From assembly GCF_000015045.1 (NCBI RefSeq), contig NC_008609.1, positions 2,241,501-2,305,500 of the forward strand: DNA of 64,000 nucleotides. Direction: 5' to 3'. Within the stretch, counting starts at the first letter, position 1, and every line of letters starts with the position of its first letter. Positions 36,807 to 39,849 of this stretch are shown piece after piece. A program made the translations under genes and the position numbers. The notes under the pieces were generated by a model. It was not told the DNA's origin, searched no databases, and saw nothing but the letters and a program-made list of their open reading frames with translations. The DNA is from Pelobacter propionicus DSM 2379. Its GTDB lineage: Bacteria > Desulfobacterota > Desulfuromonadia > Geobacterales > Pseudopelobacteraceae.

Positions 36807-36917
36807 TCCGGACGACATCACGCAGCGGGATTACCCTGAGCAGCTCTGAAAAATAGACATTGCACCACGAACGAAACGTTTTTTGAGGGATACACTCATT
36901 CCAGGGAGGGAACGGAT

Positions 36918-38084
36918 ATGCCACGAGCACTGATTCCGCTGGCGGACGGATTTGAAGAGATAGAAGCCATGACCGTTGTCGATGTGCTGCGAAGGGCCGG
37001 ATTCGAGGTGGTACTGGCGGGCCTGCACGGCGGACCGGTGGAAAGCGTGCGCAGGGTCAGCGTCATCCCTGACGCAACCATCGACGCCGCACGTTCAGAC
37101 CAGTTCGACATGGTCATCCTCCCGGGAGGGCAGCCGGGAGCCGCCAACCTGAGCGCCGATGTCCGCGTCATCCGCCTGCTGAACGACTTCAGCAAGGACA
37201 ACAAACTTATCGGCGCCATTTGCGCCGCCACCACGGTGCTGTCGGAGGCGGGGTTGATCAGGGGAAAACGGGTCACCGCCTACCCTGACTACCGTGACAG
37301 GCTGCCCGGCGCACAGTACGAGGACAGCGCGGTAGTCATCGACGGCAAGATCATCACCAGCCAGGGACCGGGCACTGCCATGGCGTTTGCCCTGGCCATC
37401 GTATCCCGCTTTGCCGGTAAACACACTGCCGATGAAATCGCCGGCAAGATGCTGGTGCAGACCGATGACCGGCAGCACACCATCTGGGACAGGTACCTGT
37501 TCAACACCACGGTGCAATCCCTGGTGGAGGCGCTGGAACTGAAGGACAGCTTTACCCAGGGACACGCCAAACGGGTCAGCGAGTACAGCCTGAGCATCGG
37601 GGCCAAGCTGAAACTGCCCCCCCTCGAGATGCGGAACCTCTACCTGGGGGCCATGCTCCACGACATCGGCAAGATCGCCACCGAGTCCGATCTGCTCACC
37701 AAGCCCGACAGCCTCAACCTGCGGGAGGAGACCCTGATGCGCGAGCACCCCATCAAGGGAACACTCTTCATCGTCGGCTTCGACAACATGAGCAACATCG
37801 TCCCCACCATCCTGCACCACCACGAACGCTGGGACGGCAGCGGTTATCCTGCCCGTCTGAAGGAGGAGCAGATCCCCCTGCACGCCCGCATCGTCTGCCT
37901 TGCCGACGCCTTTGCCGCCATGCTCTTCCCGCGCTCTTTCCGGCCTGGCATGGAGAGGGAACAGGCCATCCAGGAGATCCTTAAGCAGAAGGGAGCGCAA
38001 TTCGACCCACACCTGGTCGACCTGTTCCTGGAGTGCCTCACCGAATCACCCTTTGAAATGAATGATTTCAGTTTCTATTTCTAG
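36918..38084 (+). CDS. DJ-1/PfpI domain fused to HD-GYP domain
   Basis: 388 aa. Residues 1-180 are a DJ-1/YajL-type domain: LIPLADGFEEIEAMTVVDVL with the conserved Glu (E16), and GAICAATTVL with the nucleophile C102. Residues about 200-380 are HD-GYP: H216, HDIGKI (H248, D249), HPIKGT (H277), HHHERWDGSGYP (300-311) and ADAF. All catalytic positions appear intact, so it could hydrolyse cyclic di-GMP under control of a redox- or glyoxal-sensing domain. No membrane segment. The last codons (EMNDFSFYF) are the left attachment site of the island downstream, so the C-terminus was supplied by integration. Confidence 0.85.
   Translation: MPRALIPLADGFEEIEAMTVVDVLRRAGFEVVLAGLHGGPVESVRRVSVIPDATIDAARSDQFDMVILPGGQPGAANLSADVRVIRLLNDFSKDNKLIGAICAATTVLSEAGLIRGKRVTAYPDYRDRLPGAQYEDSAVVIDGKIITSQGPGTAMAFALAIVSRFAGKHTADEIAGKMLVQTDDRQHTIWDRYLFNTTVQSLVEALELKDSFTQGHAKRVSEYSLSIGAKLKLPPLEMRNLYLGAMLHDIGKIATESDLLTKPDSLNLREETLMREHPIKGTLFIVGFDNMSNIVPTILHHHERWDGSGYPARLKEEQIPLHARIVCLADAFAAMLFPRSFRPGMEREQAIQEILKQKGAQFDPHLVDLFLECLTESPFEMNDFSFYF
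38053..38084 (+). other. attL: left attachment site of the island, within the 3' end of the DJ-1/HD-GYP gene
   Basis: The 21 bases 38053-38073 (TTGAAATGAA, then T, then GATTTCAGTT) recur at 51430-51450 with one mismatch (T to G). The similarity continues in reading-frame terms: EMNDFSFYF stop here against EMKDFSYYF stop there. Confidence 0.75.
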
Positions 38085-38172: not shown

Positions 38173-39849
38173 GAGTCTGTCGGGCTTGACCTCAGGGGCG
38201 CCCTCTTTTGTGGCCAAGCCGATTAAAAAAGTTCCGTATGTGTTCGTCTTCCCACCGGCAACCTGGTTAATTCAGCCCTTTCAGCGATGACTGCGGTTAT
38301 TACAGGCTGATTTTCGCTATTTCTCATTCTATCCGGCCAAGACATGCAGCCGTTTGATGTTGTAGGCCATGCAGACGAGGTTCCATTCGCCTTTTACTGC
38401 TTCAAAGCCACGAAGAAGAAAGCTTCTGAATCCCATGACCGCCTTGATGATGCCGAAGACCGGTTCCGAGGTGACTTTTCGCTGGGCGTAGATCGCCTTG
38501 CCGGAAGGTGTCTTCAGGCGATGCTTCATTCTGGCCACGGAATCGGCATCTTCGGGTAACGGCGGCGGTTCGGCAAAGCGCTCCATCAGTGGCACGTTGT
38601 GACTCTGCCGGTCTACGGCAATGTAGGGAGTTATCCCGTTCTCCTCACAGGCAGTTACATTGGTTTCGCTGAAGTAGCCACTGTCAGCTACCAGATCGGT
38701 TGCCTTGCCAAGCTTCTCAGGCAGCGCCGCCAGGTTCTCCAGGGTCGGTGTCAGCTCCTGTTTGTCATTGGGATTCTGGGTAACATGGGCCGAAACGATG
38801 AGCTTTGATGCTGTATCCACACCGGCCTGGGCGTTGTAAGTCTGCTCGAATCCGCCACCGGAGGTCGGCATGATCCGCGACTCTTCATCGGTCAGATTGA
38901 CCTGATCTTTGGCAGTGGGGCCGGATTTGGGCGGTTTCGGCTCTTTCCCCTTGGCCTTCTTGCCCGTTGCCTGCTCCTTCTTGGCCCGTTCGGCGACTTT
39001 CTTCTCATAAGCGGCCTGTTCACGAGCATGGCGCTCAGCGGCTCGTTTTTCGATCTCGACCTTGGCTGCGGCAATGGCGGAAAGACGCTTTTCCCGACGT
39101 TCCAGTTCTTCGGGGATGTTCATGCCGTCCGGAATATCGGCACGGTCCGCTGCCTCGGCCTTTTTGAGCAGTTCGCCAACCTCAGCCTTGATCTGCTCTT
39201 CAAGCTTGCAGGCATGCTCATAGCTCAGCGCCTTGTGCTTGGAGGCGTTCGCCTTGATTTTGCTGCCATCCAAACTAACGTTGCCCAGTTTCAGCACCTC
39301 CATCTGATGAGCGATCAGCAGAATCTGGGCAAACAGCTTGTTCAGTTGCGGCAGAAAACGCCGGCGGAAGGTGGCAATGGTATCGTGGTCAGGATGACTG
39401 TTTGCCGCTATGAACCGGAATGCCACGGAGTCGTAGGTGCTGCGCTCAAGCTTCCGGCTGGAGAATACGCCTGTCGCATAACCGTAAAACAACAATGCTA
39501 CCAGCATCTCAGGGTTATAGGGCTGCGAGCCTCGGCCGGCATAGGTAGCTTTCAAAGAGCGCAGGTCGAGCTGTTCGACAATTTCGACCACAAACCGGGC
39601 CAAGTGCTTTTCTGGTAGCCAATCCTGCAGCGATGGCGGGAGCAGATAGGGTGTTTCCCGGTCAACTTCAATAAACTTTGATTTCATAGTCAACCCCGAT
39701 ACCTAACCAGTTGATATTACCGGACAAATATACGGGATACACCAAGAAAACGCAAGCTAAAGCTGACGACTTATTCAATAAATACAGCAGGTTAACCAAT
39801 TGAAAACGCCCTGGAGATGACGGCTGAATGCGTTAAGCCCGACAGACTC
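38173..39849 (-). mobile_element. IS1182-family insertion sequence
   Basis: 1,677 bp with perfect 15-bp terminal inverted repeats (GAGTCTGTCGGGCTT at 38173-38187, AAGCCCGACAGACTC at 39835-39849) and CTAG directly outside both ends (38169-38172 and 39850-39853), consistent with a four-base palindromic target duplication. One transposase gene. Confidence 0.88.
38329..39687 (-). CDS. IS1182-family transposase
   Basis: 452 aa from the ATG (a TTG six bases upstream is in frame). N-terminal region QDWLPEKHLARFVVEIVEQLDL and YNPEMLVALLFYGYATGVFSSR; first Asp in GNVSLDGSKIKANAS, second in DLVADSGYFSE, Glu in RKVTSEPVFGIIKAVMGFRSFLLRG. A charged, Lys-rich insert (EKKVAERAKKEQATGKKAKGK...) lies before the second Asp, as usual in this family. 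Complete DDE set and both ends intact, so likely active. Confidence 0.9.
   Translation of the reverse strand: MKSKFIEVDRETPYLLPPSLQDWLPEKHLARFVVEIVEQLDLRSLKATYAGRGSQPYNPEMLVALLFYGYATGVFSSRKLERSTYDSVAFRFIAANSHPDHDTIATFRRRFLPQLNKLFAQILLIAHQMEVLKLGNVSLDGSKIKANASKHKALSYEHACKLEEQIKAEVGELLKKAEAADRADIPDGMNIPEELERREKRLSAIAAAKVEIEKRAAERHAREQAAYEKKVAERAKKEQATGKKAKGKEPKPPKSGPTAKDQVNLTDEESRIMPTSGGGFEQTYNAQAGVDTASKLIVSAHVTQNPNDKQELTPTLENLAALPEKLGKATDLVADSGYFSETNVTACEENGITPYIAVDRQSHNVPLMERFAEPPPLPEDADSVARMKHRLKTPSGKAIYAQRKVTSEPVFGIIKAVMGFRSFLLRGFEAVKGEWNLVCMAYNIKRLHVLAG

Follow-up and report, generated by a model that had tools for sequence, protein, structure and literature searches.

The window (the whole 64,000-nucleotide stretch of the Pelobacter propionicus DSM 2379 genome that was analysed) carries an open reading frame which opens with an ATG at position 36918 and continues in a single unbroken frame of 388 codons to a stop codon ending at 38084. 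An N-terminal DJ-1/PfpI domain, of a type associated with stress, and a C-terminal HD-GYP domain, of a type that normally breaks down cyclic-nucleotide signals, are encoded within this frame (Table 1), with the matches to PF01965 and PF13487 both far exceeding the Pfam cut-off values, while residues 4-175 also match the NCBIfam model TIGR01383 with 180.2 bits, against a cut-off of 131.25, and thus score as a member of the DJ-1/YajL family. The frame check and the two Pfam matches bear out an earlier sequence-only reading of this DNA, which had placed both domains in one frame, and the residues it had singled out (E16, C102, H216, the HD pair at 248-249, H277, the HHH at 300-302 with E303, and DGSGYP) are all present. 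No promoter was found by consensus, and three terminator-like sites were found, compared to 2.3 in shuffled sequences. An ORF of 305 amino acids on the minus strand within the fusion gene was set aside as a shadow. A DDE transposase gene (PF01609, PF05598; window positions 38329-39693, minus strand) lies 3' of the fusion.

Table 1. Positions of the fusion gene, its domains and its key residues in the window
Feature	Position	Strand	Remarks
Shine-Dalgarno-like GGGAGGG	36904..36910	+	Spotted by eye, just 5' of the fusion ATG
DJ-1/HD-GYP fusion ORF	36918..38084	+	388 aa; stop included in coordinates
DJ-1/PfpI domain, residues 3-163	36924..37406	+	PF01965, E=8.8e-50
Glu16 (human DJ-1 Glu18)	36963..36965	+	By alignment; retained in 31/31 fusions read
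Cys102 (human DJ-1 Cys106)	37221..37223	+	By alignment; retained in 29/31 fusions read
Linker, residues 181-191	37458..37490	+	Length differs among relatives; pLDDT <50 at residues 185-189
HD-GYP domain, residues 202-366	37521..38015	+	PF13487 (HD_5), E=9e-35
His216 (PmGH His189)	37563..37565	+	Gln in 15/31 fusions read
His248-Asp249, HD pair (PmGH His221-Asp222)	37659..37664	+	
His277 (PmGH His250)	37746..37748	+	
His300-302 (301/302 = PmGH His276/277)	37815..37823	+	
GYP motif, G309 Y310 P311	37842..37850	+	Motif of the HD-GYP family
Asp330 (PmGH Asp305)	37905..37907	+	
Ala333, replacing a conserved Asp (PmGH Asp308)	37914..37916	+	Alignment with 4MCW
C-terminal tail DFSFYF	38064..38081	+	Also in both stand-alone HD-GYP proteins of genus g2 read (L023, L024)

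Using a profile built from eleven fusions, the ten others of which are 60-72 % identical to the window protein, 76 genomes of the family (including that of P. propionicus) were searched, and a full-length fusion could be distinguished in 29 of these, the genome studied here among them, distributed over 7/9 genera. Three further family genomes gave a shortened match (G041, G048 and G044), that of G041 reaching the end of its contig. Searches of the class (277 genomes) and of a phylum sample (395 genomes) were performed at E ≤ 1e-75, with the best six and four candidates per genome scored, respectively. The former added one more fusion in another family of the same order (G264), which may result from transfer or mis-binning as G264 is a draft genome in 280 contigs, while no further fusion was found in the latter. 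Among the matches listed from the genome-contig collection, comprising 80 loci with 14 DJ-1 and 71 HD-GYP ORFs, there was no independent fusion elsewhere, although near relatives may be missing from this set. An assembly or frameshift artefact could be ruled out on the basis of the full-length orthologs in these genomes and genera. The combination of PF01965 with HD-GYP, for which the sequence-only reading had suggested a domain-architecture search, recurs (29/76 family genomes and G264), and the fusion is of long standing within one bacterial family, where it is conserved. At E ≤ 1e-25 the 29 full-length genomes have no DJ-1 match other than the fusion. Relaxing the threshold to E ≤ 1e-20 brings up a second and weaker hit to the DJ-1 superfamily in G020, G050, G051 and G058, and other enzymes of this type may thus exist in the cell beside the fused domain. 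No description of a DJ-1 and HD-GYP architecture was found in the open-licence papers searched, where co-mentions of the terms were unrelated, nor was DJ-1/YajL found there as a partner of HD-GYP; within those bounds this agrees with the sequence-only reading, in which no characterised protein of such architecture was known. The fusion is a real and conserved domain combination, for which no described precedent was found in these papers, built from known parts.

Residue counts across the fusions refer to 31 distinct genes (L130 repeats L019, and G044 and G048 were left out), and to 30 rows at sites beyond residue 306, at which L139 stops with its contig. Alignment with human DJ-1 pairs the nucleophile Cys102 with the nearby Glu16, as in DJ-1/YajL proteins, and places Tyr122 at the position of human His126, where Drosophila DJ-1 beta likewise has a Tyr. 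Judged by its sequence, the DJ-1 half has what a Cys-Glu DJ-1 enzyme needs. It resembles YajL and human DJ-1 (TIGR01383, PF01965) in its predicted fold (rmsd 1.2 against human DJ-1) and in the Glu18/Cys106 pair, but these proteins have no C-terminal HD-GYP domain, and the human His126 is not conserved in the fusion. DJ-1 proteins form dimers, and the function of DJ-1 itself is still disputed; a genomic partner that has been kept for so long is a useful clue to it. Cys102 is replaced by Gly in two fusions (L021 and L149), both with complete HD-GYP motifs, and one of the two sits in G264, the draft genome from another family.

Large-subunit catalases also join a DJ-1 superfamily domain to another enzyme, but this domain belongs to the Hsp31 branch, is located at the C-terminus and has a different partner (PMC9137513, in excerpt). 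The DJ-1-like domain of 3FSE is matched by the DJ-1 half, whereas the second domain of 3FSE is ferritin-like and the alignment over both parts is poor (rmsd about 16). Among the best 50 rows of the structure comparison, no chain fitted both halves of the fusion well.

The closest reference for the HD-GYP half is PmGH, the GAF/HD-GYP phosphodiesterase of Persephonella marina (4MCW), whose numbering was obtained from the alignment by subtracting 6 from the chain index, with HHERWDG and GYP serving as a check. The H...HD...H...HH...D metal motif of the HD-GYP family is present (H216, H248, D249, H277, H301, H302 and D330). Seven of the eight metal ligands of PmGH are retained in the window fusion, the exception being the third-metal ligand Glu185, and equivalents of Asp183 and Lys225 (Asp210 and Lys252) are kept, as is a basic residue at each of the substrate positions Arg314 and Lys317. 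PmGH differs in having a GAF domain where the fusion has DJ-1, and in the residues Glu185 and Asp308, which are Phe and Ala in the fusion. As Phe212 stands at the Glu185 site, in place of the Glu or Asp of the trinuclear (E/D-T-G) subgroup, the window HD-GYP can be placed in the Y/F subgroup according to the criterion of PMC4159591, and members of this subgroup are expected by Bellini et al. to be binuclear (PMC4159591, in excerpt). The HD-GYP half is of the Y/F class and probably binuclear.

In PmGH, the D308A replacement was about as damaging as alanine mutations of the metal ligands (PMC4159591, in excerpt), and the window fusion has Ala333 where an active phosphodiesterase would be expected to carry the Asp308 equivalent. 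This counts against the predicted activity, but not against the fold family, since Asp308 lies outside the motif for which the family is named. In 96 other distinct HD-GYP rows (70 from the genome-contig collection, 17 from relatives and nine from the own genome; a set biased to near matches), this position is occupied by Asp (75), Glu (11), His (5), Ser (2), Cys (1) or a gap (2), and in no case by Ala. Among the fusions, Ala333 is restricted to the window protein and the single relative from its genus (2 of 30 rows), with an Asn in one other copy. The HD-GYP domain, which had been described as intact, is so with regard to the seven metal ligands, but not at the Asp308 and Glu185 sites. The residues required of a binuclear phosphodiesterase are in place in this half, apart from Asp308 in the window's genus. 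There is a substantial chance, if somewhat short of even, that the HD-GYP half of this genus has no catalytic activity and functions in binding or interaction instead, which would be compatible with each of the readings discussed below; the parallel with D308A and the lack of Ala in the 96 rows argue for this, while the retention of all seven ligands besides Glu185, and of the Asp183 and Lys225 equivalents, argues for activity, as does the HD-GYP dN/dS of 0.076 between the two members of the genus, although dS is saturated at 1.9.

A second change in the HD-GYP half, His216Gln, is confined to genus g6, where the 15 fusions carrying it form a single clade (support 100; 100/100 in a second tree). 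RpfG, which is named as an active enzyme, has a Phe at the His189 position (PMC4159591, in excerpt), and thus His216Gln need not be inactivating. Pro278Thr, adjoining the metal ligand His277, accompanies His216Gln in 15/15 copies (L020 and 14 others) and is absent from the other fusions read. None of the fusion copies read combines the loss of Cys102 with a change at position 216 or 333, which is weak evidence given that there are only two Cys losses. Values of dN/dS were well below 1 in each half for every pair tested (11 pairs; nine for both halves, one for the HD-GYP half only and one for the DJ-1 half only), and ranged from 0.05 to 0.23 in the DJ-1 half and from 0.04 to 0.13 in the HD-GYP half, with synonymous sites near saturation or saturated in some pairs, such as the window protein and L012. 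The HD-GYP values of the four His216Gln pairs (0.037 to 0.069) indicate strong purifying selection. In 29/29 fusions compared (L019/L130 and L139 left out), the HD-GYP half is better conserved than the DJ-1 half.

Each half also occurs alone. The HD-GYP half alone is found in 7/15 genomes of genus g2, and DJ-1 alone in six genomes of genus g6, all six of these proteins retaining the Cys; G064, with a DJ-1 fragment only (1-79), was counted with neither the fused nor the DJ-1-alone group. Both g2 loci read (L023 and L024) occupy the same slot, between rfbC/MFS and a Znu-type transporter. By eye, their HD-GYP proteins retain the Trp-Asp of the fusion linker together with the DFSFYF tail. In genus g6 the same slot is visible in the flanks of two of the six DJ-1-alone loci read, with the gene directly adjoining the Znu-type permease in L155 and other genes inserted in L151. 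No HD-GYP remnant was found beside the DJ-1-alone genes at E ≤ 1 in the six loci, one of them, L152, being on a contig only 3.7 kb long. The DJ-1-alone genes are nested among the fused ones in the tree, and a constraint placing the fused genes in one clade was rejected (p-AU 0.0123) in a quick tree of a reduced set, which had four outgroup rows and lacked L149, L153 and L154, and for which the group was chosen after the first tree. As the DJ-1-alone genes fall among fused ones, the HD-GYP half has most likely been lost in these g6 lineages. For the HD-GYP-alone genes of g2, the fused genes as one clade had a support of 54/10 and the alternative was not rejected (p-AU 0.436), in a test using nine outgroup rows, and HD-GYP alone in g2 may be either the ancestral state or the outcome of a DJ-1 loss; the outgroup rows of the HD-GYP trees were hand-picked from the 96-row set. 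A single fusion event probably took place before or early in the family, in a tree without a settled root.

The neighbours of the fusion in relatives include an M16 peptidase, a dTDP-sugar epimerase, an MFS transporter and a Znu-type metal transporter, the latter two of which are missing from the compared 23 kb of the window. None of these neighbours points clearly to carbonyl or redox stress, and the Znu-type genes and the fusion are convergently oriented.

The AF2 model of the fusion as a monomer has a mean pLDDT of 91.4 and a pTM of 0.54, and is confident within the domains but not between them. Residues 185-189 and 378-383 have a pLDDT below 50, and the linker is predicted to be disordered. 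The tail DFS[YF]YF (residues 383-388) is common to all eleven fusions aligned, despite the low confidence of the model at 378-383.

The best explanation overall, to which we would assign about an even chance, is a conserved two-domain protein whose halves function side by side with only loose coupling between them. The DJ-1 half would act as the YajL-type stress or carbonyl enzyme of the cell and as the dimer-former, and the HD-GYP half, tethered to it, would hydrolyse or at least bind cyclic di-GMP, a plausible substrate in a genome with 35 GGDEF matches. Having lost the Asp308 equivalent, the HD-GYP half of the window's genus may have little or no hydrolytic activity. The low-confidence linker of variable length and the occurrence of the halves alone point to a single chain with two functions that are loosely tied to each other. 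Against this, the 29 genomes that keep both halves in one chain hint at a useful coupling, and a DJ-1 dimer could order the linker, whereas the AF2 model is that of a monomer. The two Cys losses also make up only a small sample, and the Phe of RpfG and the purifying selection on the His216Gln copies likewise count against this reading.

A tighter arrangement, in which an oxidant or reactive carbonyl is sensed by the DJ-1 dimer at Cys102/Glu16 and the HD-GYP hydrolysis of cyclic dinucleotides is switched in response, appears doubtful. Fusion partners of HD-GYP domains can be regulatory, sensory or catalytic (PMC8177086, in excerpt), and the near-constant Cys102, the invariant Glu16 (29/31 and 31/31 fusions read, respectively) and the spread of the fusion over 7/9 genera of the family are consistent with such a switch. 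However, the Cys-less fusions L021 and L149 keep complete HD-GYP motifs, each half can stand alone, the linker is modelled with low confidence and varies in length, and the window protein itself carries Ala333. Since one half is frequently missing or changed in relatives, tight coupling is unsupported as a general rule. The direct coupling of carbonyl or redox stress to second-messenger turnover put forward in the sequence-only reading is thus weakened by the Cys-less fusions, the lone halves and the variable linker. That reading had named the loss of activity-critical ligands as counting against it, and here the ligands stay in place in the window protein, but the Asp308 equivalent is Ala and 15 other fusions carry His216Gln. 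Coupling via Cys102 across the family is not supported, while regulation by Cys102 is possible. It is unlikely that an oxidant or reactive carbonyl at Cys102 of the DJ-1 dimer directly sets cyclic dinucleotide turnover, with the half-losing lineages as natural uncoupled controls. The natural variants (Cys-less, His216Gln, Ala333, HD-GYP alone and DJ-1 alone) make coupling directly testable.

It is quite improbable that the DJ-1 half has no enzymatic role and instead stabilises or dimerises the HD-GYP domain or acts on it like a chaperone, as might be suggested by analogy with the Hsp31-like C-terminal domain of large-subunit catalases (PMC9137513, in excerpt), by the loss of the Cys in 2/31 fused copies and by the greater conservation of the HD-GYP half in all fusions compared, given that most fused copies keep both the Cys and the Glu and that the Cys is kept in every DJ-1-alone protein read.

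The g6 DJ-1-alone loci L150, L151 and L155 have a gene of a REC-GGDEF cluster in the same region, directly adjacent in the case of L150, with Pfam run solely on the member from L155. They also carry CheR genes, identified with Pfam in L155, or genes that resemble CheB by eye. Members of the REC-GGDEF and CheR/CheB-like clusters are likewise found at the fusion locus L146.
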